This document shows positions 26,447-53,495 of a DNA stretch of 64,000 bases, in pieces; within the stretch, counting starts at the first letter, position 1, and every line of letters starts with the position of its first letter. This DNA is from a virus. The translations under genes and the position numbers were made by a program. Under the pieces are notes generated by a model, which was not told the origin of the DNA, did not search any database, and was given only the letters and a program-made list of their open reading frames with translations. The stretch is from positions 1-64,000 of IMG/VR virus record IMGVR_UViG_3300011115_000934; one strand, given 5' to 3'.

Positions 26447-27355
26447 ATGGGAGGAAACGTATTCGATAGTACAGCACCAATAAAAAAAGAACATATTAAA
26501 CCGACTCTATTAGAGTTCTTTAAGCAGTTCAAAACTATATTTCCAAAAGCAGAACCATTCTTTAGAGAAATGAAAACTTTAGGATCTGTAGGAAAGAAAG
26601 ATTATTCAGGGGATATTGACCTAGCATTGGCTGGGTCGTCCTTTGATAATGTAGAGGATTGGGGACTAGACGAAAAACACGTTCAAGCATTATTTGAAGG
26701 ATTCAAGAAAAGAGCTAGAACATCTTCGGATGATCAGTTAATGAAAAGAGCTGTAATTGTTGCAATAGCACAAAAGATTGCAGAAGCCGATACAGAAATT
26801 ATTGCAGATGTAAAAGGATCTTCTGCAGGAGCTTTATTTCTTTTATTCCCTCAATACGATGAGAATAACGAAGTAGTAGGACAAAACGTTCAAATAGATG
26901 TAAATGTAGGAGACGTTGATTGGTTACAATTTGCATACCACTCAGCCACTTACTCAGGAAACGTAAAAGGGTTACATAGAACACAATTACTTGTATCTTT
27001 ATTCTCTCAGAAAGGATTTACATTCTCTCACAATTATGGAGTAAAGGATAAACAGTCACAAGAGATTGTAGCAAACACACCACAACAGGCAATAGATCTT
27101 TTAAACAAATCATATGATCTAAATTTAGATCGAGATACAATAGGAGATTACTTTAAACTAATGGAAACATTAGAAGCAGGTTTATCTCAACAAGATCTAA
27201 ATAATGTTTACGATACTTATCTAAAAATACTAGATAGTACTAGAGCAGATATACCAGAGGACTTACAACAGTACTGGATTGACAACCAAGAAAGATTAGG
27301 ATTAAAAGGTAAGTTTTTACCCGATAATTCAAATTTAACACAATACAAAGTATAA
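26447..27355 (+). CDS. Pol beta-type nucleotidyltransferase (302 aa)
   Basis: Starts MGGNVFDSTAPIKKEHIKPT, then TLGSVGKKDYSGDIDLAL with Gly46-Ser47 and Asp56-x-Asp58, the GS and DxD signature of the DNA polymerase beta nucleotidyltransferase superfamily; a third acidic site may be in VQIDVNVGDVDW. I recall this type of phage protein from marine T4-like phages. The substrate (tRNA, protein or small molecule) cannot be read. It sits behind a host-type promoter and 1 nt before the 906-aa fusion gene, whose N-terminal domain is also a nucleotidyltransferase. Confidence 0.8.
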   Translation: MGGNVFDSTAPIKKEHIKPTLLEFFKQFKTIFPKAEPFFREMKTLGSVGKKDYSGDIDLALAGSSFDNVEDWGLDEKHVQALFEGFKKRARTSSDDQLMKRAVIVAIAQKIAEADTEIIADVKGSSAGALFLLFPQYDENNEVVGQNVQIDVNVGDVDWLQFAYHSATYSGNVKGLHRTQLLVSLFSQKGFTFSHNYGVKDKQSQEIVANTPQQAIDLLNKSYDLNLDRDTIGDYFKLMETLEAGLSQQDLNNVYDTYLKILDSTRADIPEDLQQYWIDNQERLGLKGKFLPDNSNLTQYKV

Positions 27356-27356
27356 T

Positions 27357-30077
27357 ATGTCAGGAGTAGCAGGAGGAAATAGAATAGAAAGAGGAGATGT
27401 ACAGAGTACGTTTAATAAATACGTAGAAGAAGTTCTAAGTAAAATACCAGGCTTCAAAAAAGCTTCTCTATCAGGATCTGTAAAAGCAGGTTCAAAAGCT
27501 GACTTTGGAGACTTAGATATTATAGTATGGTTTGAGGGAGATGATAAGAGGGAAGTAAAACAACGACTTATTGATGCAGCCCTAGCTCTTCCTCAAAACA
27601 TAATTGTACCTTTCAAATCAGAAAAGTATACAGGTAGAAGATATTACAACTCAGGTGAACTAATCTCAGTACTATACCCAATTGTAGGAAAAGAAGATCA
27701 GTATATACAAGTCGATAACATCATTTCACTTTCAGAAGAGGAACATGCCTTCAAAGGATCATTCTTAGATCTACCGGCAGAAAAGCAAGGAATATTAATA
27801 GGATTAGCAAAAGTAATTCTATTGGAGCAAGATCCACAAGATGTGTTTAGAAGAATGGGTATTTCAAATGTACCTAAACTTAAAAAAGGTGAAGAGTTTG
27901 AATTCAACCTATCATCAGTAAAATTATCTCTTAGAAAAGTTCAACTCGAAGGATTTAAAGAAATAGCAAGAGAAGAAATATGGTCAACAACAGCTTGGGG
28001 TACTATAAAAATACTATTTCAAGGATTTAATATTGACGGATCTTTTGAAGACCTATTAGACGATGTTGCTAGAAAACTTACAAATGCTAGATCTAAAAAT
28101 AGAATAGCAGGTATTTTTAAATCAATGGTATCTGTTAAATCAGGAGAAGTTGGAACAGCTAAAGGAAAAGGTAAAGAAGATGCACTAGAAAAAGTAGCAC
28201 AAACACTTGCAGAAGCATTGGATGATGGATCTGAAGTAGTAGCACTTTATGCTGGAGGATTTAAACCACCACATTTAGCTCACTTTCAAAATGCTAAATT
28301 CCTTTCTACTAAAGCAGATAAGATTGTAATCTTTATTGGACCTAAAATCAGAGAAGGAGTAAAGATTACAGCAGAACAATCAAAAGCAATTTGGGAGATT
28401 TATGCCAAATATTTAAACGTACCAGTAGAAGTTGTTATTAGTAGAGTAACTCCAATTTTGGATACCTATGAATGGATTGATGCAAATCAAGACAAAGTAA
28501 CAGACATTATAACTGGAGCAATGGCTGATGAAATGGGTAAATTCTCAGGTATAGCAAAAAGAAAAGAAAAAGGAGATTACAAAAACGTAGAAGTGAAAGA
28601 GCTTCCAGTAATTGTAGATAAAGAGGACAGCAAATTCTCAGCAACTGATATTAGAAAATCAGAGAAGTTTTTATTAGGAGGTTCGTGGATTCCAAAAGTA
28701 GTATCAAAAGAAGATAAACAAACAATCATAGACATCGTGACACCACAAAAAGAGGATTCAGTAGAAGACAAAATGCTAAGTGCAGTGGATAACGTATTTG
28801 AAAGTTTCTTTCCAAAGAAAACCAAAACAATAAAAGAAGGATCATCAGGAACAGCAATAACACCAGGAGGAGCGATTCCCTCAAAAGATAGAGCTTCTTT
28901 AGAGCATCTTTATGATGACTTAAAACAAACAATAGATCCAGACAAATACACAATAGTATTTAACCAGGATAGAATTGACATCTATATTAAAACATATTCA
29001 GATGTCAGTTTTGATGGAACACCATATCAAAAGCATTTACCAGAACAAGTAGAACAACAGAAGTTTAATTATACACCATACATAGGATCTCTTTTAGAAT
29101 ATATGCTGGATCAAGGAATGAACATCACTCCACTTCCAGAAGTAAAAATAAGATACGACGAACAAGAAGCAGATAACTTCTTTGGTAAAACAGCTTACTA
29201 TGATCCAAATAATAGAGAAGTAATTCTGTACGTAATGGGAAGACATCCAAAAGATGTTTGTAGATCATTCTCTCATGAAATGATTCACCATATGCAAAAC
29301 ATGGAAGGAAGACTTGGAGGATTGGCAGGAACTACCAATACAAATGAAGACGATCGTTTACAGGAAATAGAAAAAGAAGCTTACTTAAAAGGAAACATCA
29401 CATTTAGAAACTGGGAAGACGGTTTAAAAAATAATGATAATAAAGAGGTTATGGCAGAAGGAAAGTACGATAAACTAACAAACATAATCTCCTCAGATAT
29501 ATTCAGAGCTTGGAAAGAGGGAATAGATGCTGGAGAGGATGGAGTGCAGTTTAAAAAAAAGTATAAAGCATTAGGGGGAAAGTTTGATTTAATAGCAACT
29601 CTTGAACAGACTTGGGAAACAGGTAAGATGGAGGTAATGGAACCTACAGGAGCAGGTACAGATAAAAAAGGAGATTTTATTGTCATTGAAATTGATATAG
29701 ATGAAGATCTACTACCAGAAATGTGGGAAGAAATCTCTATGACTTTAAAAGATGTAGTAAGACATGAAATTGAACACCTAACACATAACATAGGAAGTTC
29801 TACATCTAATCCTAATAAAGGAATGGAGGATGATATAGCACAAAGAGACGCTATAAGAGCAGATAGAAGAACGATTCATAAATACTTTAAACTAGACAAA
29901 GAAGTAGATGCAAATCTACAGGGATTGTATTTTAGAGCTAAAAAAGAAAAGAAACCATTTGCAGATGTTGTAAACAGATATTTAGACTCTCAACAAATAA
30001 CTCCAAAACAGAGAGAGGAAGTAAAGGCAATATGGAGAGAAAGATTACCTGCATTAGGTATTAAACAAACATTATAA
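27357..30077 (+). CDS. Four-domain enzyme fusion: NTase + nucleotidylyltransferase + two zincins (906 aa)
   Basis: Domains in order. Residues 1-200: pol beta-type nucleotidyltransferase with Gly40-Ser41 and Asp52-x-Asp54. Residues 290-450: HxGH-type nucleotidylyltransferase (cytidylyl/NMN-adenylyl superfamily) with GGFKPPHLAHF (His306, His309) and SATDIR (428-433). Residues 510-690: zincin with HEMIHH (640-645). Residues 705-906: second zincin with HEIEH (803-807). The linkers hold possible prohead-protease sites: LAE286 before Ala, IKE494 before Gly, MAE701 before Gly. The last two each precede a new domain. I infer a polyprotein cut into separate enzymes. The substrates are unknown; NAD or nucleotide metabolism is possible for the second domain. 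Confidence 0.8.
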   Translation: MSGVAGGNRIERGDVQSTFNKYVEEVLSKIPGFKKASLSGSVKAGSKADFGDLDIIVWFEGDDKREVKQRLIDAALALPQNIIVPFKSEKYTGRRYYNSGELISVLYPIVGKEDQYIQVDNIISLSEEEHAFKGSFLDLPAEKQGILIGLAKVILLEQDPQDVFRRMGISNVPKLKKGEEFEFNLSSVKLSLRKVQLEGFKEIAREEIWSTTAWGTIKILFQGFNIDGSFEDLLDDVARKLTNARSKNRIAGIFKSMVSVKSGEVGTAKGKGKEDALEKVAQTLAEALDDGSEVVALYAGGFKPPHLAHFQNAKFLSTKADKIVIFIGPKIREGVKITAEQSKAIWEIYAKYLNVPVEVVISRVTPILDTYEWIDANQDKVTDIITGAMADEMGKFSGIAKRKEKGDYKNVEVKELPVIVDKEDSKFSATDIRKSEKFLLGGSWIPKVVSKEDKQTIIDIVTPQKEDSVEDKMLSAVDNVFESFFPKKTKTIKEGSSGTAITPGGAIPSKDRASLEHLYDDLKQTIDPDKYTIVFNQDRIDIYIKTYSDVSFDGTPYQKHLPEQVEQQKFNYTPYIGSLLEYMLDQGMNITPLPEVKIRYDEQEADNFFGKTAYYDPNNREVILYVMGRHPKDVCRSFSHEMIHHMQNMEGRLGGLAGTTNTNEDDRLQEIEKEAYLKGNITFRNWEDGLKNNDNKEVMAEGKYDKLTNIISSDIFRAWKEGIDAGEDGVQFKKKYKALGGKFDLIATLEQTWETGKMEVMEPTGAGTDKKGDFIVIEIDIDEDLLPEMWEEISMTLKDVVRHEIEHLTHNIGSSTSNPNKGMEDDIAQRDAIRADRRTIHKYFKLDKEVDANLQGLYFRAKKEKKPFADVVNRYLDSQQITPKQREEVKAIWRERLPALGIKQTL

Positions 30078-30090
30078 AAACAAAAAGGTT

Positions 30091-30681
30091 ATGGGAAATT
30101 TAACAGACTTACTATTAGAAGAATCAGACTTCATACCAAAGTATCGGATATACTGTGATATGGATGGAGTATTGACGGACTTTGAAAAAAGGTTTCTTAC
30201 ACTACTAAGAAAAGAGGGTCCAAAGTATTATTCAAAGGCAGTTATTGCACAAGTAACAAGACCTAAACATTTTCAGAAACTAGAAGGAGACGAAGAGTTT
30301 TATAAATTTATAGACCAGCACATTGGACTAGAATTTTGGTCAGACATGGAATGGATGCCAAATGGAAGAGCATTATGGGACTTTATACAACCATACGGAC
30401 CAAAGCTTTTAACATCACCATCAGAGGATGACACCTCAAGATTAGGAAAAAGATTGTGGGTAAGAAATAACCTAGAACCAGCACCAGAAGTAATTTTTAG
30501 ATTTGGAGATTCAAAGGCGGATTTCGCAAATGAAAATAGTATATTGATAGACGACAAACCTTCCAACCTAGAAGCATTTGCTTCTAAAGGAGGAATAGCA
30601 ATACAATGTAAAGATGGAAACATTTCATCAGTTATAAACGAATTAATACAACTTGGTTATGGCAAAGGAGAGCTTACTTAA
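30091..30681 (+). CDS. HAD-family phosphatase with leader-like N-terminus (196 aa)
   Basis: HAD motifs: DMDGVLTDF (motif I, nucleophile first Asp), LLTSPS (motif II), and SILIDDKPSN (motif IV), with a Lys/Arg in FGDSKADF likely for motif III. It resembles 5'(3')-deoxyribonucleotidases, which would recycle or remove deoxynucleoside monophosphates. The first ten residues, MGNLTDLLLE, precede ESDF and look like the capsid-targeting leaders of neighbouring proteins (LLE site). Overlaps the next gene by 23 nt. The enzyme family is clear, the substrate is inferred. Confidence 0.85.
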   Translation: MGNLTDLLLEESDFIPKYRIYCDMDGVLTDFEKRFLTLLRKEGPKYYSKAVIAQVTRPKHFQKLEGDEEFYKFIDQHIGLEFWSDMEWMPNGRALWDFIQPYGPKLLTSPSEDDTSRLGKRLWVRNNLEPAPEVIFRFGDSKADFANENSILIDDKPSNLEAFASKGGIAIQCKDGNISSVINELIQLGYGKGELT

Positions 30682-31917: not shown

Positions 31918-32688
31918 GTGATTAAATTAACTGATTTAATAAATGAAATGATGTTGCAAGAAGAGCTGGTTCAATCCGATGCTTGGAAAGCGATACAAAA
32001 AACTATTGACGTTCTTAAGAAAAAAAAGAAAGTACTATTACTAAGTTGTTCAAATAGATACAATTGGGATGACAATGCTATTGATGTTCCAAAATCAAAG
32101 ATGATAGCAATGTACCTTCACAGCCAATTAACAAACAATTCAGTACTAATAGACGTACCAGAACTTAACATCTTTCCTTGTGAAGGAAACGTATCAAGAA
32201 AAGACGGGAATAGTTGCGGAGTACTAAAAGCGGCACTTAAAGACAAAGATAAGAATCCATCAGGACATCACAGATGCTGGGCAAGCTATAATAATCCAAA
32301 AGATGAATTGTGGAAAATCTCAAAAGAATTATTCGAATCAGATGCAGTAATATTTTTCAGTTCAATAAGATGGGGTCAAACAAACATGTATTACCAAAAC
32401 TTAATTGAGAGATTGACTTGGATTGAAAACAGACATACAACTTTAGGAGAGTCAAATCTTATAAAAGATGTTCAATCTGGATTTATATGTGTGGGTCAAA
32501 ACTGGAATGGAGAAGTTGTTAGTGAAACACAAAAAGATGTTCATAAGTTTTATGGGTTTAAACCAAATAATGACTTATATTGGAATTGGCAATACACTAA
32601 AAATGTAAACGACGAGACACAAAAATCATATAAAGCATCGCATAAAAAGTTTATACAGGATACTAAGATACCAGATAACACAAAGTAG
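31918..32688 (+). CDS. Flavodoxin-fold (FMN reductase-like) protein with leader peptide (256 aa)
   Basis: Residues 1-17 (MIKLTDLINEMMLQE) form a leader-like helix with two candidate protease sites (INE10, LQE15). From residue 38 the sequence reads as a flavodoxin-like NADPH-dependent FMN reductase: KVLLLSCSNRYNW (phosphate loop), then VLIDVPELNIFPCEG, DAVIFFSSIRWGQTNMYYQN and the final FICVGQNWNG strand-loop. Family members reduce FMN, quinones or metals with NAD(P)H. Start is GTG at 31918, 2 nt after the previous stop. A redox enzyme with a head-targeting leader is unusual. Confidence 0.75.
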   Translation: MIKLTDLINEMMLQEELVQSDAWKAIQKTIDVLKKKKKVLLLSCSNRYNWDDNAIDVPKSKMIAMYLHSQLTNNSVLIDVPELNIFPCEGNVSRKDGNSCGVLKAALKDKDKNPSGHHRCWASYNNPKDELWKISKELFESDAVIFFSSIRWGQTNMYYQNLIERLTWIENRHTTLGESNLIKDVQSGFICVGQNWNGEVVSETQKDVHKFYGFKPNNDLYWNWQYTKNVNDETQKSYKASHKKFIQDTKIPDNTK

Positions 32689-33239: not shown

Positions 33240-35219
33240 ATGGCAAACTATACAAAATTACAACTTTCAAAGAAACTACTACAAGTAGAATCAGCAATTA
33301 ACAGTTTGAGAAAAACTCAATGTTCAAAATCTGAGCAAGGAGTAATTAAAGAGCAGATCACACGATTAAAACAAGCTAAGAATACTCTTACAGGTTTGCT
33401 AAAAGAAGAGATGACACCAGCCGAAGCACAAGCTAAGAAGTCTGCCATAGCTCTTCAACAAGAAAAGATAAAAGACGCTACAAAGCAACTTCAGACAGCA
33501 AAATCTCCATTAGAGAAAAAAGCAGCACAAGACGCTTTAGTAGCTGCAAAAGAAGACCTAACACAAGCAACCGCAACCCAAGAAAGTATTTCGGAAGAAA
33601 CAAGAAAATACACTACACAAGAATCAGCAGCAGTTGGAAAAGCAGTTGCTAAATCTCTATTAAAAGTTCTTAGAGCAGAAGGAGATGAAGTTGTAGGTTT
33701 AAGACTTACAGGATTAGGTGTTGATAAATTTAACATAAATGTTCAATACGGAAACGACAGAGGATCGGATATTTTTAAATTCAACCTTAATCCAGAAGGA
33801 ACAGCTATTATATTAGACTTAGGAAACGAACCAATAGAGCTAGTAGACTTTATTATCACACAGGGTAATACCGTTTCTCTTCCAACTCCTGAGCTAGAAG
33901 ATAAGTTGAGTGATGCAATGAAAAAGTACGTTGGAGAACCGTCAAATGATGAATACGATCAAATGGCTGCAATGGAACCTGAGCATGATGAGTCACAAAT
34001 CAACAAGTATATTAACGAGGATGACTATTTACAATCGGATGACGAATCTTCAATGGCAAAGTCGCAATTAAAATCCATTCAATCAAATGCAAGTAAGTTA
34101 ATAAATATAATTGGAGATGATGAGCAATTGGATGCTTGGATTCAATCTAAATTAACAAAAGCAGAAGACTATTTAGATGCAGCAGCAGGATACTTAGAAT
34201 CAGAAGAAGGAGAACAAGAGCAAGGATCCGTAACAGTAGCACTAGCATTAAATGAAAAAAAAGGAACTTGTTGTCATAAATGTGGACATGTTCACGTGAA
34301 AGGAACACCACACCCTTCTCCATACTTTACAGGTAAAAGAAGTTGTGAGTTTAACAATACCAACGAAGCATTAGATGCAGTTGGAAAAGAGGATGACGAT
34401 ATCAATAATGATGGAAAAGTTGATAAAACAGATAAGTATTTAAAAAATAGAAGAAGTGTTATTTCTAAAAAACTATCAGAAGGAACAGTAAAAGATTTCT
34501 TTAAAGATCCAATGCATGCAGCGGATGCTAGAGGATGGATTAGAAATCCAAAACTAACAGATACTCAAAGAAGAGATAAGATTAAAGCAGTAATGAAAGA
34601 TCCTTCTAAATTTAATGACTTAATGGATGCTTTTACAGATGAATTAGGAAACATAAAAAATGTAGTGTCTAAGAAAGAACTAAAAGAAATAATGCTAGAA
34701 GCATACGTTGAGGTTCTTCAAGAAGAAGAAGGAGCAGTTCTTAAAACTTCTACTCAAGAAATATTAGGAAAATTTCCTACAGTTAAGAAAACACTAACAT
34801 CCCTATTCACATCAGAATTCCCAGAATTTGTAACGGACGTAAGATGGGTAGTTCCAAAACCTTCCACATTTGCAGTTGATCTTAAAAATGGTCAATCATT
34901 CAATATTAAATGGATGGGTAAAGGATTCGAAGCACAAATTGAAGGTAAAAAATACTACCTAAACGATCTTCCAGATTATCAACAAGCATTGGATAAATTA
35001 AACGACCTTCTTAAAAACGGACCAATCTCACAAGGTGAAGAACCAGGTGGAGAAGAATTCGGAGCACCAGCAGAACCTGCAGCAGCAGGAGGCGGTGGAG
35101 GTGGAGACTTTCCAGGTGGAGAAGCCGGAGGAGAAGAACCAGCAGCTGAATTCGGAGCAGAAGAAGCTCCAGCAGGAGATGAAGGAGGAGCAGAACCAGA
35201 AACACCAGAAGCACTATAA
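33240..35219 (+). CDS. Modular acidic phage polyprotein (659 aa)
   Basis: Modules in order: helical region (1-120) ending in SISE119; beta-rich domain (125-215); helical module [20 protein letters not shown] (285-304), known to me from virion proteins of marine T4-like phages; Cys/His zinc-binding-like segment (Cys344, 345, 348, 369); EF-hand-like loop with Asp387, Asn389, Asp391, Asp395, Asp398; a domain at 410-470; leader-like helix [19 protein letters not shown] (477-495); beta domain (500-590); and a Gly/Glu/Ala/Pro-rich acidic tail. Several (L/I)xE sites fall between modules (LLKE, LSE414, LQE495). This suggests cleavage in the prohead. ATG 33240 follows a TATCTTTA without a -33 element. 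Confidence 0.75.
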
Positions 35220-36298
35220 TGAGCGTAGTAGATAAAATAGTTACAGAATGGGCCTTTCGTTGTAAGAAAGGATACCCAGATATGAATAATCCTGATGATA
35301 TGAAAATACTAAAAGAGATTTATTCACAGTTTGGTATTGTACAAGAAGAGGAAAAACCTGAGGAAGAGGAAATATCTATATCAGTAGCTGATATAAAAGG
35401 AGTATTAGGATCAATTAAAGACGATCAAGATGCAATAAAATATATATACAAATACATAAAAGGTAGATCAAGAAATACAGAACTACAAACAGTATTGACT
35501 AGAGCAAACATAAATGCAAAAACTATATCAGGAATGAATGCTCCTAAGGCTATTTTTGACATACTAACACATAACGATGATTTAGAAAACTTTATGCAAT
35601 ACGTAAAGAGCGATAAACATCTAACCTATCCAACTTTAGGAGAAGGAGGTAACTTAGTCGATAAATTAGCAGTCACAGGTATATCGAGAAAGAGTATTGA
35701 AGAGCTTATTGGGTTAGGAGGATTTGAGGGAGGAAGAGGAGTTGGTAAGGGAGAAGTTGCATTAGCACTTCTTGTAGACGACCTAAGCATGAGAGAAGGA
35801 TCTGGAGACTTAGATTGGCAAGGAAAGTACGTAGAGGTAAAAGGATCAGGAGGACGTATGGGAGGTAGAAATACTAAAATTCCCGAAAACCTAAGCCTAG
35901 TAAAAAGATACAGACAAGCAAACCCACCAATTGCATCAAAAAGGTTAAACGAAATAATCCCAGCACTACTACAACAAGGTACTCCAAAAGAAGATCTTCG
36001 CAAAGAGTGCGAGGAACTAATAGATAGCATATATCCACAAGGAAAAGGTAGTGCATACATTACAGCGGAAAACTTGGGTAATTCAAAAGAGTTGAGAGCA
36101 GCATTTCAAAAAGCATATTTTTACAACTACCTAAATACAGAAGGAGTAGACTACTTGCTTATGCTAAATACATCTTCAACAGGATTGGGTAGGTACATTA
36201 ATCTACCTGTAAGCAAAGTGGGAGCATATGTAGAAGAGCATCCAACAATAACTTCTCCAATAAACTTGGATGAGAGTACACCACAGATAAAAGTATAG
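35219..36298 (+). CDS. PD-(D/E)XK-like nuclease protein (359 aa)
   Basis: A nuclease-like core: GKGEVALALL (Glu179), GSGDLDWQGKYVEVKGSGGR with Asp197/Asp199 and Glu206-Val-Lys208, the spacing of restriction-endonuclease-like folds. The N-terminal region (EWAFRCKKGYPDMNNPDDM) is a separate small domain, and residues 44-51 are poly-Glu. The C-terminus is alpha-beta. It could cut host DNA or resolve phage DNA. It is coupled to the modular protein upstream by a TAATG junction. Confidence 0.75.
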   Translation: MSVVDKIVTEWAFRCKKGYPDMNNPDDMKILKEIYSQFGIVQEEEKPEEEEISISVADIKGVLGSIKDDQDAIKYIYKYIKGRSRNTELQTVLTRANINAKTISGMNAPKAIFDILTHNDDLENFMQYVKSDKHLTYPTLGEGGNLVDKLAVTGISRKSIEELIGLGGFEGGRGVGKGEVALALLVDDLSMREGSGDLDWQGKYVEVKGSGGRMGGRNTKIPENLSLVKRYRQANPPIASKRLNEIIPALLQQGTPKEDLRKECEELIDSIYPQGKGSAYITAENLGNSKELRAAFQKAYFYNYLNTEGVDYLLMLNTSSTGLGRYINLPVSKVGAYVEEHPTITSPINLDESTPQIKV

Positions 36299-36341: not shown

Positions 36342-37934
36342 ATGGCAGATAATTTTAATTTAAGAGCATTCTTATCAGAGAATAAACTTACAAAGAACGC
36401 ACAACTTCTAAAAGAGCAAGAATCACAACACACACCCGAAGAGGAACTATACTACAAAATAGTAGAACAACTTGATATAGCAGGCCTAACAGGAGAAGTA
36501 ACTGTAGCACTTCACTCAACCCACGGTATGCCTAAACCAGAATTCCAAGTAATGAATGCAGATGATGCTGCGTGGATGATCGCAGAAGCAGTAGTAGAGG
36601 CCGAAGCAGATGTAGACGATATACTGTTTGCACAAGGTGATGAAATAGATCAACAAGGAGAACTTGACCCAGAAACAGAAGGACTTGAATGTGGATTAGA
36701 GATTGCAATTGTAGATGTTGGTACCTATGAGATTTATCAAGGTTCTAACAAAGGAGGAGAAGACAATCTTGACGAAGGAAGTTACTCAGACAGCTACGAT
36801 ACACCAGCTGCTAAAAAAGTAGGAGGACAACTTCAATCAGCAATTCATGACGTACGGTCTCGTAGTGAGATTGATCCAACAATAGATAAACTAATTGCAG
36901 CAGCAGAGCAAGAAACACAAAGTCAAGTAACTTCTTCTGAAAAAAGAATACTATCATCACAAGGATACCACATCTATAGCAATAATGCAGAAATGGAAAG
37001 AGAAGGAACACAAAATAAAAAACCAATGATGAAAGAAACAAAATTAACTGCTAAAGAAAGACGTTTAGTAGAAATGGTAAACAATGCCATGGGAATGAAA
37101 AAAGAAAACCACCTAGGATATGCAACTCATGACGAGGATCAAGAATTCGATCCAGGACATGACATCGAACAAGCACAACACGATATTGAAAGACAATACG
37201 AGGGAGAAGATTACGGCACTAATGCAGTTACAGGAAAGCCTTTACCTAAACCAGATCCAATCGTAGAAGATGGAATGGCTGACGAAACTGTAATACCTGA
37301 ATACAATACAATCGACGAGTTAATGAATAGCATTGACCACGGAACTAACGAGGTAGCAGAAAAGCATAAAATGGAGCAAATGAAAAAGATTGCTGAAGCA
37401 TTAAGAATGAAAGCAAAGAAAATGGAAGAAAGTGAGCATGCTGCACACATTAGTCCAAAAGACTTAAAGCAATTAGCAACAGATGCTGCAAAGTTAGAAA
37501 AAGCAGCAGAAAAGTTAAAAGCAGCATTCGATAAAAAATTCAACAAAAAAGAAAAACCAGCTTCAGCTGCAAAAGCAGAAAAAGTAGAAGCATTACAAGA
37601 AAATAGAATGGAAAATTTTGATTTAAAAAAGTTCTTAGTAGAGAACAAATTGACTACCAACTCTAGAATGGTAAATGAAGAGTTAAAATTTATAGATGCG
37701 ACTGATCCGGTAAGAAACAAAGGAGGTGACCAACACCTAAAACTTTCAGACTTAGTACCAGGAAAAACAGTAATTGCACTTAATAAACATTACAGTAATA
37801 AAGCTGAATTAGAAGATGAAGCAGGAACCTTTATAGAAGTAGACGAAAACGATTACATACACTGGAAAACTAAGGACGGCAAAGATAAAGTATGGAAATA
37901 CTTTGAAGATCTAGCAATAATTAAAAACCTATAA
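36342..37934 (+). CDS. Acidic protein with two copies of a leader peptide; likely polyprotein (530 aa)
   Basis: The N-terminus NFNLRAFLSENKLTKN (4-19) recurs inside the protein as NFDLKKFLVENKLTTN (425-440). The internal copy begins with its own Met423 and follows directly after LQE420-Asn-Arg, a good prohead-protease site. Both copies end in (L)xE sites themselves (LSE13, LVE434). The stretch between is acidic and helical with coiled coils (residues 320-415), and the last 90 residues are a small beta-domain (VPGKTVIALNKHY). I read this as two precursor proteins in tandem, each with its own head-targeting peptide. Function of the mature parts unknown. Confidence 0.75.
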   Translation: MADNFNLRAFLSENKLTKNAQLLKEQESQHTPEEELYYKIVEQLDIAGLTGEVTVALHSTHGMPKPEFQVMNADDAAWMIAEAVVEAEADVDDILFAQGDEIDQQGELDPETEGLECGLEIAIVDVGTYEIYQGSNKGGEDNLDEGSYSDSYDTPAAKKVGGQLQSAIHDVRSRSEIDPTIDKLIAAAEQETQSQVTSSEKRILSSQGYHIYSNNAEMEREGTQNKKPMMKETKLTAKERRLVEMVNNAMGMKKENHLGYATHDEDQEFDPGHDIEQAQHDIERQYEGEDYGTNAVTGKPLPKPDPIVEDGMADETVIPEYNTIDELMNSIDHGTNEVAEKHKMEQMKKIAEALRMKAKKMEESEHAAHISPKDLKQLATDAAKLEKAAEKLKAAFDKKFNKKEKPASAAKAEKVEALQENRMENFDLKKFLVENKLTTNSRMVNEELKFIDATDPVRNKGGDQHLKLSDLVPGKTVIALNKHYSNKAELEDEAGTFIEVDENDYIHWKTKDGKDKVWKYFEDLAIIKNL

Positions 37935-41500: not shown

Positions 41501-42355
41501 ATGCGTATTAAACACAGTAAGTATAAAAACACGGGCTTAATATTTGAACTATTAGTAAAACAAATAGCAGCGGACACCTTATCGAAAAGAGACTCCCCAG
41601 CTTTGACAGTACTAAGAAAGTTCTATACAGGAAACACGACCCTTGTAAGAGAATTCAAATTATACGATTTTGTATTAAAAAATAAAGGAGTAGGACCTAA
41701 AAAAGCAGAATCAATACTTAGCACAATTGTAGAGATTTCTAGAAAGCTTGATGCAAAGTCTCTTAGTAAACAAAAATACGAATTAATAAAAGAACTTAAA
41801 AGTCACTACGATTTAGAAGAATTCTTTTCTATTAAAGTTGAATCATACAAGCCATTAGCAGCTCTTTACTGTTTGATGGAAGCACAATCAACAGCAGGTC
41901 TTGTAGACCTAGATGTATTTGTTGATAATAAAACTACAATACTTGAGCATTTAACTCAAAGTAAAACAGATAACGGACAAGTAAAAAATGCTTTAATTGA
42001 AGAGTATTCAAAATACGATAAAGATTTAAGACTTTTGACATATAAAATACTTTTAGAAAAATTTAACCACCAATACAAAGATCTACTTCCAGAACAAAAG
42101 AATATTCTAAAAGAATTTATTGTATCTGTTAACTCTTCTACACGATTAAGAAACGTAGTAAATGAGGAAATGACGAAATTGCAAACACAAATTTCTAAAT
42201 TAAAAAAGAATGTTACTGATAAAGTAGTAAAAATTAAATTAGAAGAAATTCAAAAAGCAATTGTTCCTGTAAAAAATACTCAAAAAGTAGACGATAATCA
42301 TTTAGTATCTTTAATGCAGTACTATGAATTGGTAAATGAACTAAAAGCTCTATGA
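41501..42355 (+). CDS. Head-cluster protein of unknown function (284 aa)
   Basis: All-helical, Lys-rich protein opening MRIKHSKYKNTGLIFELLVK. I associate this type of protein with the portal-to-protease interval of marine T4-like phages, but have no name for it. A coiled coil lies at residues 222-252. It overlaps the next gene by 4 nt (ATGA). A prohead assembly role is likely from position only. Confidence 0.7.
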   Translation: MRIKHSKYKNTGLIFELLVKQIAADTLSKRDSPALTVLRKFYTGNTTLVREFKLYDFVLKNKGVGPKKAESILSTIVEISRKLDAKSLSKQKYELIKELKSHYDLEEFFSIKVESYKPLAALYCLMEAQSTAGLVDLDVFVDNKTTILEHLTQSKTDNGQVKNALIEEYSKYDKDLRLLTYKILLEKFNHQYKDLLPEQKNILKEFIVSVNSSTRLRNVVNEEMTKLQTQISKLKKNVTDKVVKIKLEEIQKAIVPVKNTQKVDDNHLVSLMQYYELVNELKAL

Positions 42356-42723
42356 AAAGGTCAAAATTACTTGAGATAATAAGAGAAGTCCTAAGTGAAG
42401 ACGGAGCAATAGGAAACGTAACTGGAGCTATGGATGGTGGAATGGGATCTCCTAAAACACCTAGAGCTTTTGCTAAACCAGGACAAGGAGAAAATTCTGC
42501 TACTAAAGTAATGAAAAAGGATGGATTTAAAACAGTAGCAAGACCAAAACGTCCGTCAAATACTAAGATGTTTGACTATCTAGATGAAATGCATTTTGGA
42601 ACTCCACATGCTTTTGTAACAGAAGCAGAAATGGAAAACAGTGATGCAGTTAAACATACAGAGGAAATGGGTTACAAGCTAGTAAAGAAAACCAACAAAG
42701 CATCAGATAAAAAGAATAAATAA
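42352..42723 (+). CDS. Putative prohead core protein with leader peptide (123 aa)
   Basis: Starts MKRSKLLEIIREVLSED, an amphipathic basic helix ending in LSE16, the best-formed example of the repeated leader plus protease site in this window. The remainder is Gly/Lys-rich, with a central FDYLDEMHFGTPHAFVTE (about 73-90) and a Lys-rich tail. Position between portal and protease matches the small prohead core genes (67/68) of T4, though sequence similarity is not evident. The stop is 1 nt before the next ATG. Confidence 0.7.
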   Translation: MKRSKLLEIIREVLSEDGAIGNVTGAMDGGMGSPKTPRAFAKPGQGENSATKVMKKDGFKTVARPKRPSNTKMFDYLDEMHFGTPHAFVTEAEMENSDAVKHTEEMGYKLVKKTNKASDKKNK

Positions 42724-43635: not shown

Positions 43636-44217
43636 ATGAACAATCCACTATTAATAAATGTAACTCCTTTCAAAGGACTTCTTACCGAAGTAAAAAACAG
43701 ACCAGGTGTATTTGAGGTAACAGGTATTATGCAAAGAGCAGGAGCTAAAAACCAAAACGGAAGAATCTACAAAAGAGAAATACTAGAAGATCAAGTAAGA
43801 GAGTATGTAGAGAATTTTGTAAAAGTAGGAAATGCTTACGGAGAATTAGATCATCCAGAATCAGCAATTGTATCTTTAAAAAATGCATCACACGTTGTAA
43901 AAGACTTATGGTGGGATGGAGATGATTTAATGGGGAAAGTAGAATTACTAAACACACCTTCAGGAAACATTGTAAAAGAAATACTAAGAGGAGGACATAC
44001 AATAGGAATATCTTCTCGAGGAACAGGATCAGTAACACAAACAAACGAAGGAACTTTAATGGTTCAACCAGACTTTGAATTAGTATGCTGGGATTTCGTT
44101 TCTAATCCTTCTACGCAAGGAGCTTTCATGAATCCAATTTCTTTAAACGAACAAAAACAAGCAGTAGGAAAATACGATAGACTAGATTCTATCATTAACA
44201 ACATATTAAGAGCATAA
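43636..44217 (+). CDS. gp21: Prohead core protease gp21 (193 aa)
   Basis: T4-type prohead protease. GRIYKREILE is followed by the catalytic histidine in YGELDHPE (His73) and the catalytic serine in GISSRGTGSV (Ser126/127), with WDFVSNPS (Asp153) supplying the third site. It degrades the scaffold and trims head proteins after (L/I)xE motifs. Length is close to T4 gp21 (212 aa). It provides the activity on which the packaged-cargo hypothesis for this window depends. The start of the next gene overlaps its stop. Confidence 0.92.
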   Translation: MNNPLLINVTPFKGLLTEVKNRPGVFEVTGIMQRAGAKNQNGRIYKREILEDQVREYVENFVKVGNAYGELDHPESAIVSLKNASHVVKDLWWDGDDLMGKVELLNTPSGNIVKEILRGGHTIGISSRGTGSVTQTNEGTLMVQPDFELVCWDFVSNPSTQGAFMNPISLNEQKQAVGKYDRLDSIINNILRA

Positions 44218-44501
44218 TGGAAAACAATTTCGACATGCACCAATGGCGTGCAAATTTTTTAAAAGAAGACTATAAAATAGGAGGAGATAGTGGCTTAGAT
44301 ATACCAGGAGACGAGCCTACTCCCGTAAAAGTAGATAAAGTTGCACAAGAAGTAGGTAGCATTGCAAGTACAATAGAGGACACATTTCAAGCATTTACTA
44401 AAGAGGTACAACAGAAGTACCCTGACATATTTCAGGATAAGAATATACTAGACCGTATCAATATGATGGCACAACAGATTAAACGGTTAAAAGGACTATA
44501 A
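44217..44501 (+). CDS. Small head-cluster protein (94 aa)
   Basis: N-terminus MENNFDMHQWRANFLKED resembles the leader of the 530-aa protein (NF-x-(L/M)-x3-FL-x-E) with LKE17 as candidate protease site. An acidic Pro-containing linker and a helical C-terminus (DRINMMAQQIKRLKGL) follow. Couples to gp21 by a TAATG overlap and ends before a terminator. Probably a minor prohead core component. Confidence 0.65.
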   Translation: MENNFDMHQWRANFLKEDYKIGGDSGLDIPGDEPTPVKVDKVAQEVGSIASTIEDTFQAFTKEVQQKYPDIFQDKNILDRINMMAQQIKRLKGL

Positions 44502-44683: not shown

Positions 44684-46159
44684 ATGTCAAACAAAGATTT
44701 ATTAAAGCAAGCTATTGCCGAAGCGAAAACTATTCGTGAAGCTGCAATTGCCAATGCTAAAGAAGCTTTAGAAGAAACATTGACTCCTCACTTAAAAGAA
44801 ATGCTTGCTCAAAAATTGCAAGAAATGGAAGATGCAGATGATGAGACAGTGGATGAAACTATTAACAACGCCGAAGCCGAAAGCTATTCTGAAAATCCAT
44901 CAAAACATGGTAATTTAGAAGAAGCAGAAGAAGAGGAAGAGGAAGCTGAAGAAGAAGAAACTCCTGAAGAAGGAGAAGAAGGTGAAGAAGAAGAGGAATT
45001 AGAAATCGAAGACATGTCTGTTGAAGATTTAAAAGACCTAATCAGAGACATCGTTGCACAGGAAGTAGGTAATGACGAAGAAGCAGAAATTGAAACTGGT
45101 GAGGAGTCTGAGGACGATATGACTAGTGTAGATGATTCAGAAGAAATCGACATTAACGAATTATTAGCAGAATTAGAAGGAATGGACGAATCATCTTACA
45201 CCAAGAACCCAAAAGACTCAGACAAAAGTGGAGCTAATGATGGATTTACAAATCCTTCAAAAAGAACACCAGCAAACTCTAAACATGGAAACACTTATCA
45301 AGCAGGTGCTGGTCATAAGCCAGGAAGAGAAACCTACACAAACGAAGGTGAAGAAGTAAATGAGGATTTACAAGCAGACGTAAAAGCTTTAGCCGCTAAG
45401 TACGGTCAAGCATTTGATGCTTGGATTACAAAAACTGGAGAAAAAATTCACGGTGGTCAAGGATTAGGTCTTACTAAAGGTGCATTCAAAGAAACAGTAA
45501 ATGAGGACTTGAAGGCAGACATGGAAGCTTTAGCTAGTAAATATGGAAAAGCTTTTGATGCTTGGATTACAAAAACTGGAGAAAAGATTCATGGTGGTCA
45601 AGGATTAGGACTTACTAAAGGTGCATTTAAAGAAACAGTAAATGAAGATCTAAAACAAGACGTAGAAGCTTTAGCCGCTAAGTACGGAAAAGCATTTGAA
45701 GATTGGATTACAAGAACTGGAGAAAGGATTCATGGTGGTCAAGGATTAGGTCTTAATAAACCATCTAGAGGTATCGGAATGGAAGAAGAAGTATCTGAAG
45801 AATTAAACGAAGCTTTAAAAGCAGTTAGAATTCTAAGAAATCAACTTCAAGAAGTTAATCTTTTAAATGCAAAATTACTTTATGTAAATAAAGTATTCAA
45901 ATCAACTAATTTATCTGAAGGTCAAAAAGTAAATGTTATCGCAGCATTTGACAAAGCCGAAACAGTTAAAGAAGTAAAATTAGTTTTCGAAACAGTTTCT
46001 AAAAATGTAGTTGCTAAACCAGCTGCATTAAAAGAGCACAGATCTTTTGCTTCTAAAGCAACAGGTAACGCACAAACAACTGCACCAAAAGAAATCTTAT
46101 CAGAAGTATCTGAGCAAGTTCAAAGATGGCAGAAGTTAGCAGGAATCATTAAATCATAA
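44684..46159 (+). CDS. gp22: Prohead core scaffold gp22-like with triplicated module (491 aa)
   Basis: Acidic helical protein directly before the capsid gene. Residues 1-180 are Glu-rich (a run of EEEEEAEEEE type at about 85-110). Residues 227-367 contain three tandem 47-residue repeats with cores AAKYGQAFDAWITKTGE and IHGGQGLGL. The C-terminal part (LNEALKAVRILRNQLQEVNL, then LLYVNKVFKSTNLSEGQKV) is the piece most like gp22 of marine T4-like phages. gp22 fills the prohead and is destroyed by gp21. The repeats are unusual and may be surviving peptides. Confidence 0.8.
   Translation: MSNKDLLKQAIAEAKTIREAAIANAKEALEETLTPHLKEMLAQKLQEMEDADDETVDETINNAEAESYSENPSKHGNLEEAEEEEEEAEEEETPEEGEEGEEEEELEIEDMSVEDLKDLIRDIVAQEVGNDEEAEIETGEESEDDMTSVDDSEEIDINELLAELEGMDESSYTKNPKDSDKSGANDGFTNPSKRTPANSKHGNTYQAGAGHKPGRETYTNEGEEVNEDLQADVKALAAKYGQAFDAWITKTGEKIHGGQGLGLTKGAFKETVNEDLKADMEALASKYGKAFDAWITKTGEKIHGGQGLGLTKGAFKETVNEDLKQDVEALAAKYGKAFEDWITRTGERIHGGQGLGLNKPSRGIGMEEEVSEELNEALKAVRILRNQLQEVNLLNAKLLYVNKVFKSTNLSEGQKVNVIAAFDKAETVKEVKLVFETVSKNVVAKPAALKEHRSFASKATGNAQTTAPKEILSEVSEQVQRWQKLAGIIKS
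45362..45784 (+). repeat. Three tandem 141-bp in-frame repeats
   Basis: Copies start at 45362, 45503 and 45644, each 141 nt (47 codons), within the scaffold gene. The first two copies are very alike; the third diverges at its end. Confidence 0.9.
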
Positions 46160-46183: not shown

Positions 46184-47797
46184 ATGGAATTAAATCAATT
46201 ATTCGAAGGTTCAAATAACTACAAGTCTTTACAAGCTGACGCAGCTCGTTTGTCTGGTAAATGGGCCAAATCAGGTTTGTTAGAAGGAATTTCTAACGAA
46301 ATCGAAAGAAACAACATGGCTATGATTCTTGAGAATCAAGCAAAACAAATTGTATCTGAGGTATCTAACACAGGTAACGGTGCAATCGGAACAACTTCAG
46401 GTAATGCTGCAGGTGGTGCTGAGCAGTGGGCAGGTGTTGCTTTACCATTAGTACGTAAAGTATTCGCTCAAATCGCAGCTAAAGATTTCGTATCTGTACA
46501 ACCAATGAACTTACCTTCAGGTCTTGTATTTTACTTAGACTTTAAATACGGTACTGCAACTGGTGGTAGAACTGCAGGTGAGAACATCTACGGTAACGTT
46601 TCTACAGCTAACTCTAAAATAGCAGTAGATAGTGAAGTATCAGGAGGTTTATATGGAGCAGGTCAGTTTGGATACTCAATTAACCAAACATCTTCTGTTG
46701 TTCCAACTATTACAAACGGAACTGCAACTTCAGCTTCTATAGGATATCAAGATGGAATAAACCCAGCTTCTTTCAAAACTGCTGCAATCGCAATAACAAG
46801 CCTTTCAGGATCTGACATAGAGGCAGTTAGAGCCTTTAGATTATTGTCAGCATCAGTAGATGTAACAACTAACCCTGAATTAACATTTGTTTCTAGTTCA
46901 GCAGGTGTCAACTTCGTAGTATTTGTTTCTTCTACAATAGGAGCAGCAGCTACTATTACAACTCCTAACGTTAGATTTACAAAACAACCACTTGACACTA
47001 CAAGAGGTGACTTTGAAGATACAGGAGCTTCTACAGGATTCGGTAACATTACCATCCCAGAAATCAACGTATCTCTTGCTTCTGAAGCAATTGTTGCGAA
47101 AACAAGAAAATTAAAAGCACAATGGACTCCTGAGTTCGCACAAGATTTGAATGCTTACCACTCAATTGATGCTGAAGCAGAATTAACTTCATTATTATCT
47201 GAATACATCTCTATGGAGATTGACTTAGAATTAATGGATATGTTGATTCAAGATGCAGCTACAACTGAAAGATGGTCAGCAGCAAACAACAAAACTTGGA
47301 CAGGAACAGCTTGGTCTACTACAGCATCAGCTTTCTACAACACTCAAGGTCAATGGTTTGGAACTTTAGGTACTAAAGTACAAAAAGTATCTAACAAAAT
47401 TCACCAAAAAACTTTAAGAGGTGGAGCTAACTTCTTAGTATGTTCTCCAACTGTAGCTACAATCTTGGAATCAATCCCTGGATATGCAGCAGATACAAAT
47501 GGTGATAAAATGGACTTCGCAATGGGAGTTCAAAAAGTAGGTAACTTGAATTCTCGTTTCAGAGTTTACAAAAACCCTTACATGACTGAAAACGTAATCT
47601 TATTAGGATACAGAGGATCTCAATTCTTGGAAACTGGTGCAGTTTATGCTCCTTACATTCCATTAATCATGACTCCACTTGTATACGATCCAGTTACCTT
47701 CACACCAAGAAAAGGTATCATGACTCGTTACGCTAAGAAAATGATTAGACCAGAATTCTATGGTAAAATCTTCGTATCAGATATCACTACAGTGTAA
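46184..47797 (+). CDS. gp23: Major capsid protein gp23 (537 aa)
   Basis: HK97-fold T4-type capsid protein of usual length (T4 gp23 is 521 aa). The N-terminal 60 residues are a delta-like segment with candidate gp21 sites LFE8, LLE34, ILE50 and VSE59 before the Gly/Asn-rich mature start region. The core contains SVQPMNLPSGLVFYLDFKYG and, late, ITTLxx-like end after TPRKGIMTRYAKKMIRPEFYG. It follows the scaffold gene and ends before a strong terminator. Codon choice (more C/T-ending codons such as AAC, TAC and GGT) is visibly different from the neighbours, fitting very high expression. Confidence 0.95.
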   Translation: MELNQLFEGSNNYKSLQADAARLSGKWAKSGLLEGISNEIERNNMAMILENQAKQIVSEVSNTGNGAIGTTSGNAAGGAEQWAGVALPLVRKVFAQIAAKDFVSVQPMNLPSGLVFYLDFKYGTATGGRTAGENIYGNVSTANSKIAVDSEVSGGLYGAGQFGYSINQTSSVVPTITNGTATSASIGYQDGINPASFKTAAIAITSLSGSDIEAVRAFRLLSASVDVTTNPELTFVSSSAGVNFVVFVSSTIGAAATITTPNVRFTKQPLDTTRGDFEDTGASTGFGNITIPEINVSLASEAIVAKTRKLKAQWTPEFAQDLNAYHSIDAEAELTSLLSEYISMEIDLELMDMLIQDAATTERWSAANNKTWTGTAWSTTASAFYNTQGQWFGTLGTKVQKVSNKIHQKTLRGGANFLVCSPTVATILESIPGYAADTNGDKMDFAMGVQKVGNLNSRFRVYKNPYMTENVILLGYRGSQFLETGAVYAPYIPLIMTPLVYDPVTFTPRKGIMTRYAKKMIRPEFYGKIFVSDITTV

Positions 47798-48611: not shown

Positions 48612-49010
48612 ATGGCTGCAGGAATATACAATTTTACAATAGAACAAGGAACTACAGTAGACTTTGAGGTACAGTATAAAGACTCAAATTTAGTACCTGT
48701 AGATCTAAGTGCCTACACTGGTAGAATGCAAATACGATCTACCTATGCAGATAACCAACCAACAACATACATTACTCTATCAAGCTCACGAGCACCTGAT
48801 GGAACAGGTTTAAATTTTAGTGGAAGTGCTGCAAGAGGATTGAAACCACCTACAAGTGGTTCAATTGGAGTATACATATTGGCAGCATCTTCATCCGCTC
48901 TTAACTTTGCAAAAGCAAAGTACGACTTAGAATTATACTCAGGAAGCTTCGCAGTAAGATTGTTAGAAGGAACAGTAACACTAGATAAGGAAGTAACTCG
49001 AGTACCATGA
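48612..49010 (+). CDS. Small virion structural protein, beta-sandwich type (132 aa)
   Basis: The sequence FTIEQGTTVDFEVQYKDSN, VDLSAYTGRMQIRS, then AKYDLELYSGSFAVRLLEGT and EVTR is a widespread phage pattern of Ig-like or baseplate-upper-type beta domains. It is encoded just before the collagen-like fibre gene with a 4-nt ATGA overlap, so it may cap or anchor that fibre. Confidence 0.75.
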   Translation: MAAGIYNFTIEQGTTVDFEVQYKDSNLVPVDLSAYTGRMQIRSTYADNQPTTYITLSSSRAPDGTGLNFSGSAARGLKPPTSGSIGVYILAASSSALNFAKAKYDLELYSGSFAVRLLEGTVTLDKEVTRVP

Positions 49011-51100
49011 TAGTAAACGTATTAACAGACGATGGAACTACTGTAGAAATAATTCAAGGTGGTTTACCTAACGTTGTAGAAGTTTTTCAATCTGCAGCAC
49101 CACAGGTTGTAGAAATAGTTACGGCTGGACCTCAAGGACCTCAAGGACCAGCAGGAGCCACTGCTAGTACAGCATCCTTTGTAACAACTGCATCTTTCAA
49201 TTCATATACAGGTTCAAGTACATCTCAATTTGCAGGTACTTCGTCATTTGCAACAACTGCTTCCTATGTACTAGGAGGTGGTGGAACTGGAGCAGGATTC
49301 CCATACTCAGGTTCAGCAGTCATAACAGGTTCATTAGCAATAACAGGATCATTAAGGGTAACTCAAGGAATAACAGGTTCTTTATTTGGAACTGCATCAA
49401 CAGCAACTACTGCATCTTTTGCATTGACATCGTCAAACATTTCACCTGCTATAGCAAATAATATAAATAATTTAATACTAACAGCAACAGGTGGAGGTAC
49501 TATAAATGGTGAAAGTAATTTAAGATTTGACGGAACTACACTTGTAGCGAATTCAAACTTTCAACAAGGAGGTGATGTAACAGCAACTGGAGGATACTCA
49601 CATGCTGAAGGAGGAGGAGGTACAGTAGCATCAGGAGACTATTCACATGCAGAAGGAGAGAGCACACAAGCAATAGGACGATCTTCACACGCTGAAGGTA
49701 ATAGCACAGTGGCATCAGGGAGTTGGCAACACGTACAAGGAGCTTATAACATATCTTCATCAGCTCAATCAGCTTTTATAATAGGTAATGGTACATCAAA
49801 TACAGCTAGATCAAACTTAGTATTTGCTTCTGGAAGTACTTTTCAGGTAACAGGATCATTACGAGTATCAGGCTCAATAACAGGATCACTATTTGGAACT
49901 GCTTCAAGAGCAGTATCAAGTTCATATGCTTTAAATGCTACCAATGCAACAAGTGCTTCAGACATCTCACCTGCTATTACAAATAACCAAGACAACTATT
50001 TACTAACAGCAACAGGTGGAGGTACAATAAACGGTGAATACCAGCTAACGTTTGATGGAACTAGATTCATAGCTTATTCATCATTTCAACAAGGAAATAG
50101 TACAGACGCAAGTGGAAACTATTCCAATGCTCAAGGAAGTTCAACAAAAGCTGAAGGAGTTAGCTCGCATGCAGAAGGAAGAAGTACCTCTGCAACAGGA
50201 GACTATTCACATGCAGAAGGATATAGTGCAAGAACGTATAGAGGCTATTCACATGCAGAAGGAAATCGTGCAAGATCTTATGGTAGCTACTCACATGCTG
50301 AAGGACAAGAAACTGAGACAGGAATTACAACTGCCTTTAAGTCAACAGTATCATCAGGAGTTTTTACTATTGAATCAGGATATGGGGATATAACAAGTAT
50401 CTTTACAATAGGAAACACACTAATATCAGATGACTCAGAGTATGATGCTTTATATGGAAAACAGCTATATACAATATCAGCTGTAGATTGGAACGGTACA
50501 AATACTATAATTACAATTACAGATAACTCAATTAATACATCTTATTCAAATATAGGAGATATTAGTTACATATTTCAATGGAAAGATTATAACGGTAACA
50601 AAACAATCTCTGGAGAAGCTTCACATACAGAAGGATATTTTACACAAGCAGTAGGAAAGAGTTCACATGCTGAAGGAAACGGTACAATGGCACTAGGAGA
50701 TTATCAACATGTACAGGGTCAATTCAACATACCACTTACAACACCATCTTCTTTTATTCATGGAAATGGTACAGATAATGCAAATAGATCAAACTTAATA
50801 CATGCACATGATTCTACAGTAGAGATAACAGGATCTTTAATAGTAACAGATACAATAACTGGAAATTTAACAGGAACAGCCACAAATGCGACAAATGCAG
50901 ATAATGCTACAAATGCTGCAAATGCAACTCAAGCAGTAAGTGCTTCTTTTGCAGTATCATCTTCAAGAGCAATATCGAGTTCTTTTGCAACAACAGCTTC
51001 ATTTGCAGCTACAGCATCTTTTGCTTTAAATGCAGGAGGTGGTGGAATAGATTTAGGACTAGTACAAGCATTCTCAGTAGGATTACAAAATATATTTTAA
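49007..51100 (+). CDS. Second tail fibre: collagen-like start, SHAEG repeats and inserted domain (697 aa)
   Basis: Residues 1-45 end in a short collagen-like GPQGPQGPAGA, followed by TASF-type repeats (TASFVTTASF). A short SHAEG array (about residues 200-240), the shared capping module NISSSAQSAFIIGNGT, then a second array interrupted near residues 435-540 by a non-repeat domain (GVFTIESGYGDITSIFTIGN). After it come two more SHAEG units and a cap with HGNGTDNANRSNLIHAH. The C-terminus has an Ala/Thr/Asn stalk (ATNADNATNAANATQ). A trimeric fibre related to the one at 19007; probably the receptor-binding arm that carries the glycine-rich tips encoded downstream. Confidence 0.8.
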   Translation: MIVNVLTDDGTTVEIIQGGLPNVVEVFQSAAPQVVEIVTAGPQGPQGPAGATASTASFVTTASFNSYTGSSTSQFAGTSSFATTASYVLGGGGTGAGFPYSGSAVITGSLAITGSLRVTQGITGSLFGTASTATTASFALTSSNISPAIANNINNLILTATGGGTINGESNLRFDGTTLVANSNFQQGGDVTATGGYSHAEGGGGTVASGDYSHAEGESTQAIGRSSHAEGNSTVASGSWQHVQGAYNISSSAQSAFIIGNGTSNTARSNLVFASGSTFQVTGSLRVSGSITGSLFGTASRAVSSSYALNATNATSASDISPAITNNQDNYLLTATGGGTINGEYQLTFDGTRFIAYSSFQQGNSTDASGNYSNAQGSSTKAEGVSSHAEGRSTSATGDYSHAEGYSARTYRGYSHAEGNRARSYGSYSHAEGQETETGITTAFKSTVSSGVFTIESGYGDITSIFTIGNTLISDDSEYDALYGKQLYTISAVDWNGTNTIITITDNSINTSYSNIGDISYIFQWKDYNGNKTISGEASHTEGYFTQAVGKSSHAEGNGTMALGDYQHVQGQFNIPLTTPSSFIHGNGTDNANRSNLIHAHDSTVEITGSLIVTDTITGNLTGTATNATNADNATNAANATQAVSASFAVSSSRAISSSFATTASFAATASFALNAGGGGIDLGLVQAFSVGLQNIF

Positions 51101-53492: not shown

Positions 53493-53495
53493 TTT

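Follow-up and report, generated by a model that had tools for sequence, protein, structure and literature searches.

The reading frame at 27357..30077 of the window (the whole stretch of viral DNA analysed here, 64,000 nt within a 161,982-base virus record) encodes 906 residues that probably form a polyprotein carried as cargo by a T4-like phage; from sequence comparison we infer that it is packaged in the head, cut by the prohead protease, and injected. Four modules, conserved sites, shuffling of the modules among relatives, and a gene for a head protease are all evident in the sequences compared.

Four modules in one reading frame

The ORF and its modules are as follows.

27357..30077, + strand: four-module polyprotein ORF, 906 residues, an uninterrupted frame with one stop
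27357..28142, + strand: module A (residues 1–262), polymerase beta/lambda-like nucleotidyltransferase, from Foldseek and conserved residues
28236..28751, + strand: module B (residues 294–465), HIGH-superfamily adenylyl/cytidylyltransferase, from profile matches and H306, H309 and R433
28878..29435, + strand: module C (residues 508–693), a small alpha-beta lead-in and a zincin-like domain with HEMIH at 640–644 and E672
29460..30074, + strand: module D (residues 702–906), unclassified, of zincin-like topology, with HEIEH at 803–807 and E849

Translation and a scripted motif search confirm the original prediction of one unbroken frame with all of its motifs: GS at 40–41, DLD at 52–54 with a third Asp at D120, HLAH at 306–309, SATDIR at 428–433, HEMIH and HEIEH as listed, and LAE, IKE and MAE at 284–286, 492–494 and 699–701 respectively. 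The ORF is not a chance one, because there are 49 related loci in IMG/VR and an ORF with 79% identity in Flavobacterium phage immuto (immuto26A_183, gp183, QQO91862.1), a full-length orthologue that shares its neighbours. Searches with single modules matched at least 546 stretches for C, at least 461 for D and at least 278 for A. Members of the family occur on hundreds of viral contigs, in which the modules are split, reordered, duplicated or free-standing; module D is almost missing from cellular genomes, with two GTDB matches, both in MAG contigs. Whole-protein family scans of the 906-residue protein gave no useful match, because the family is too divergent. To the original prediction, which knew of no described protein with such a set of domains, it must be added that the protein is not an isolated case: the immuto orthologue is annotated, and the modules are found across hundreds of contigs. 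Polyvalent proteins, moreover, already combine pol-beta nucleotidyltransferases and zincins in injected proteins (PMC5512222). We note that immuto gp183 is annotated merely as 'nicotinamide mononucleotide adenylyltransferase, NadR', and that its modules and sites are not described there.

The four-domain reading is borne out by the AlphaFold model of the full chain (mean pLDDT 81.4, pTM 0.40), which has four confident domains with no fixed packing and low-confidence stretches at 466–475, 481–506, 546–568 and 694–699, and by the conserved catalytic residues. Conservation was counted in nonredundant homologues, 29 for A, 83 for B and C, and 52 for D. Loss of the metal and nucleotide sites in homologues would have spoken against the original prediction; the active-site residues are near-invariant in all four modules, and that objection thus falls away.

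Module A has a Pol lambda/beta fold (Foldseek E 3e-6, probability 1.00, target TM about 0.4–0.5) and the family X signature of GS...DxD plus a third Asp, with G40, D52, D54 and D120 present in 29 of 29 homologues and S41 in 27. In module B, profile matches to 1f9a (MJ0541, an archaeal NMNAT; E 3.3e-7) and also to phosphopantetheine adenylyltransferases (PPAT) accompany a HIGH fold with [HT]xGH and S/T-x-x-R motifs (H306, H309, SATDIR433); Gly308 is replaced by Ala here, and both H309 and R433 are kept in all 83 homologues. No curated NMNAT or NadR model among the NCBIfam families matches the 906-residue protein above its cut-off, and the kinase domain of NadR is absent; on these grounds we reject the NadR annotation. 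If one were to guess at substrates, an NMNAT-like activity for B would be the best supported of the guesses.

Of the two zincins originally predicted, module C is zincin-like, with HExxH plus Glu (H640, E641, H644 and E672 in 83 of 83), Pfam matches to a number of zincin families, all of them weak, and fold matches to IrrE-like viral predicted models; it has no PDB sequence match, and MPTase-PolyVal gives a weak Pfam match (E 0.12) in one of 12 members. Module D could not be placed by sequence or fold. It has no Pfam family, PHROG family or PDB sequence match, and against PDB folds nothing at E≤0.001 (best E at least 0.16, at low probability). Modelled alone it is nevertheless confident (pLDDT 91.9, pTM 0.86), with HExxH on one helix and a near-invariant Glu on a later one (H803, E804 and H807 in 52 of 52, E849 in 51), and we regard it as a new family that motif and predicted topology would make a zincin. 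Homology between C and D is not detectable by hhalign (P 7.2).

Module shuffling among relatives

Three genes neighbouring the 906-residue ORF in the window occur as fused modules in relatives.

26447..27355, + strand: 302-residue gene starting M/GGNVF, paralogous to module A by hhalign (P 87.6, E 3.5e-6)
30091..30681, + strand: NT5C deoxyribonucleotidase with N-terminal MGNLTDLLLEE, the next gene after the 906-residue ORF, fused after D in L035 and L180
32692..33222, + strand: 176-residue gene with a leader, whose domain is a B-C insert in eight relatives

Nonidentical ORFs display the architectures A-B-C-D, A-B-C, B-C-D, B-C, C alone, D alone, B-D-C and A-B-B-C-D, and in addition A-B-C adjoining a separate D gene. 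The cassettes inserted between modules include zinc ribbons and the domain of the 176-residue gene (the eight fused cases). In L287, L291 and L295 another HIGH transferase, of the GRFQPFHKGH type, takes the place of B in the same position behind A. The 302-residue gene, which ends one base before the 906-residue ORF and has the motifs GS...GDIDL...QID, is joined to module A in a single chain in L302, through a TLNE junction and behind a HIGH transferase; in the window the two are adjacent genes. A homologue of this gene is fused in L206 as well, where a chain no shorter than 1428 residues also includes D, a zinc ribbon, HAD-like and HD domains, and DUF6267; there was no DUF6267 match in eight longer records, where the control was silent too. 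Free NT5C copies among the matches listed all have N-terminal extensions, most of them containing L-x-E. The A-B/C-D split of L074 is left out as a key case, as an insertion may account for the additional sequence found where the chain is broken. The domain of 32692–33222 matches the T4 endoribonuclease RegB weakly (Pfam E 0.046), and it may be a packaged RNase.

Linker motifs and the head maturation protease

Comparative backing is strong for the idea, put forward in the original prediction, that three linker motifs are candidate prohead-protease sites: the motifs are conserved, enriched, and coincident with the boundaries of free-standing genes.

28206..28214, + strand: candidate site 1, LAE286, an [LI]xE directly before B in A-B linkers
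28830..28838, + strand: candidate site 2, IKE494, within the low-confidence linker 481–506, with E494 in 56 of 65 aligned sequences
29451..29459, + strand: candidate site 3, MAE701, an [LIVM]xE near the start of D in C-D linkers

The gp21 protease of T4 cleaves behind L/I-x-E, and the phage's cargo proteins bear targeting leaders of 10–19 residues (PMC9026906). LAE286 and IKE494 fit the strict rule, and MAE701, with Met at P3, fits a relaxed form only. In the AlphaFold model site 1 is at the end of a helix (268–288), site 2 is inside a low-confidence stretch, and site 3 borders one. Motifs were counted in 63 nonredundant multi-module proteins, with expectations from within-linker shuffles; the homologues are related and the counts are not independent. 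[LIVM]xE is present in every linker (19/19 A-B, 61/61 B-C and 40/40 C-D) and lies near the next module above the shuffled expectation, with [LI]xE just ahead of B in all 19 nonredundant A-B linkers versus 3.0 expected, and [LIVM]xE near D in all 40 C-D linkers versus 11.2; in B-C linkers the motif is near C in only 36 of the 61. Site density is 3.70 per 100 residues in linkers versus 1.37 in domains.

Exact boundaries are still stronger evidence: in several cases the junction Glu occupies the very position of the start Met of the free gene, as is seen on comparing M/GGNVF with NEIINE/GGNVF and VPINE/GGNVF, and M/SGVAGG with TLNE/SGSAGG. The sequence GGNxF, with which the 302-residue family starts, is preceded by Met (16 cases), by a 14–16-residue leader ending in hxE (13) or by an internal hxE (2), and occurs in no other context. 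Similarly, SGxxGG at the start of module A has Met before it, or TLNE in the fused form, and GRYD at the start of module D follows hxE in 61 of 61 cases (leaving out two chance pattern matches outside D), 59 internally and two behind a leader such as MKYIKQFENFLINE. Module D has a gene of its own in L079/L080, and there it bears no leader and no site.

The same genome encodes a gp21-type protease, as had been supposed, and several genes around it have leaders.

43636..44217, + strand: T4 gp21-type head maturation protease (phrog_207, E 4.7e-52), aligning with T4 gp21
46184..47797, + strand: T4-like major capsid protein (phrog_138, E 5.2e-71), putative propeptide end QIVSE
31918..32688, + strand: ORF with CTS-like leader KLTDLINEMMLQEE
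42352..42723, + strand: ORF with CTS-like leader MKRSKLLEIIREVLSE
44217..44501, + strand: ORF with leader MENNFDMHQWRANFLKE, kept in immuto, the remainder diverged
35219..36298, + strand: ORF with its N-terminus through VQE kept in immuto, the remainder diverged

The protease has a SLNE site at its own C-terminus, where L[NQ]E is kept across relatives, in agreement with the C-terminal processing of T4 gp21, and conservation of the capsid protein reaches as far as V[SA]E, beyond which the sequence varies. Among ten longer contigs with the family, nine match gp21 (phrog_207), the exception being G009, a fragment, and all ten have a T4-type capsid protein, the tenth weakly. A scan for N-terminal [LI]xE, with T4 proteins as positive control, found it in 12 of 17 ORFs between 26.4 and 47 kb (6.0 expected) versus 22 of 102 elsewhere in the genome (19.2 expected), and in several genes shared by the window and immuto the leaders are retained while the downstream sequence has diverged. 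The 906-residue ORF, which starts MSGVAGG, has no N-terminal targeting leader of 10–19 residues; its neighbours and its B-C-D relatives have leaders.

Several other ORFs of this region deserve mention. The 530-residue ORF at 36342–37934 has a leader, NFNLRAFLSENKLTKN, that recurs internally as NFDLKKFLVENKLTTN, with similar leaders at 44217 and at position 72301 of the genome record. The ORF at 35219–36298 has a possible PD-(D/E)XK-like motif (GDLDWQGKYVEVKGSGG), its N-terminal 45 residues being those kept in immuto and the rest strongly diverged. That at 33240–35219 (659 residues) has an EF-hand/dockerin-like segment followed by KKLSEG; HTVC008M gp133 has a similar segment, as do PHROG families such as the phrog_764 cytidyltransferases. 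In an acidic scaffold-like ORF at 44684–46159, a segment of about 45 residues (LKADMEALASKYGKAFDAWITKTGEKIHGGQGLGLTKGAFKETVNED) is repeated in tandem, with three almost identical copies.

Packaged and cut cargo, and its alternatives

We propose that the chain would be built into the prohead core, where the gp21-type protease would cut after E286, E494 and E701 to give enzymes of about 286, 208, 207 and 205 residues, which would be injected with the DNA and act at once in the host. Their substrates can be suggested only weakly: B most likely would make or repair NAD+ or a related dinucleotide, A may transfer nucleotides to RNA, DNA or protein, and C and D may cut host or defence proteins. The 906-residue chain is without its own leader, and therefore targeting would have to be internal; helices just upstream of sites 1 and 2 (268–288 and 469–484 in the model) could be the targeting elements. 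We found no virion proteomics of the window phage or immuto in the literature searched.

It is also conceivable, although unlikely, that the protein is packaged and injected as one uncut polyvalent chain whose hxE motifs are left over from the fusion of leader peptides. Leader fusion would itself leave hxE at the junctions, and the virion RNA polymerase of N4, which is a polyvalent protein with a zincin, is packaged without being processed (PMC5512222); however, the motifs are retained where linkers have diverged widely and also in the inserted cassettes, and similar sites are present in the phage's own capsid protein and protease. Less probable still is an ordinary intracellular multi-enzyme, for example of NAD+ salvage, made after infection and never packaged. 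The closest solved relatives of B are NMNAT and PPAT, and a GRFQPFHKGH-type transferase replaces B in the three relatives noted above, but the protein has neither a NadR kinase domain nor an NCBIfam NMNAT match, the genome has no NadV-type gene, and the junction motifs are left unexplained. NadV was found in one of eight records, and we have rejected NAD+ salvage with a phage NadV. Finally, self-processing by C, D or both, for which the two conserved HExxH domains and the proposal made for phage P1 DdrB (PMC5512222) might be invoked, is highly improbable, because the same hxE junctions are present in a chain without C or D (L302) and hxE also ends the N-terminal leaders of single-domain genes.

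The preferred reading, cargo cut by the head protease, has two partial precedents. Polyvalent proteins are multi-domain polypeptides of phages and conjugative elements, including pol-beta nucleotidyltransferases and zincins, and are proposed to be injected with DNA (PMC5512222, in the part considered). The 906-residue protein likewise has several unrelated enzyme domains, including these two types, in one phage polypeptide, and so unites two or more unlike activities in a single protein of a mobile element. It differs in having conserved head-protease-type sites between modules that swap with leader-bearing single genes; a HIGH transferase and module D are not met in that part of the account, and ArdC-N, MuF and ART domains were not seen in the chain. 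With the T4 internal head proteins (IPI–III, Alt) the system shares a gp21-type protease, the L/I-x-E rule, short leaders ending in the cut site, and several cargo genes (PMC9026906), but T4 cargo are single proteins, whereas the 906-residue polypeptide links several enzymes through internal sites and has no N-terminal leader. Multi-domain injected phage proteins and gp21-matured T4 internal proteins are thus already known; we read the 906-residue chain as combining the two themes, with the protease-site joint between shuffled cassettes as the new element, which we did not find as a standard joint in the open-access papers searched.

Transferases of B's superfamily are present in virions. A putative citidylyltransferase is reported in purified virions of cyanophage S-SM1 (PMC3037559) and a cytidylyltransferase in those of S-CREM2 (PMC10665884, which also cites NMNAT-like proteins in S-CBWM1, S-SZBM1 and S-SCSM1 virions). 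These are HIGH transferases of T4-like phages from another subfamily and are not orthologues of the 906-residue chain; the cyanophage matches seen have the transferase only, without A, C or D. Pelagibacter phage HTVC008M has in one block genes for a cytidyltransferase, for NT5C, for a protein with the KWDGAP motif that DUF6267 also shows, and for a kinase-like protein whose leader is MIPFILKE, and thus, as in the window, a HIGH transferase near an NT5C gene.

We lean slightly towards a broader proposal, that head-protease sites are standard joints by which T4-like phages of aquatic bacteria, including Flavobacterium phages, chain or free enzyme cassettes, mature them in the head and inject them as a defined kit, a combinatorial cargo that would be a phage counterpart of retroviral Gag-Pol processing. 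If so, the heads of a widespread phage group deliver enzyme chains that the capsid protease has matured. The [LIVM]xE joint would then be a sequence signature by which injected effectors could be recognised among genes whose function is unknown, and one may ask what has to be done early in infection that requires nucleotidyltransferases, nucleotidases, zincins and an NMNAT-like enzyme at once.

Further along the window, the ORF at 49007–51100 is rich in SHAEG repeats and resembles a trimeric adhesin head or tail fibre, and three consecutive ORFs at 51745–54398 with similar starts (MLDISHIPSQQQ, MIDVSYFQTNNA and MLDLSHIPSNQE) are probably tandem tail or fibre paralogues.
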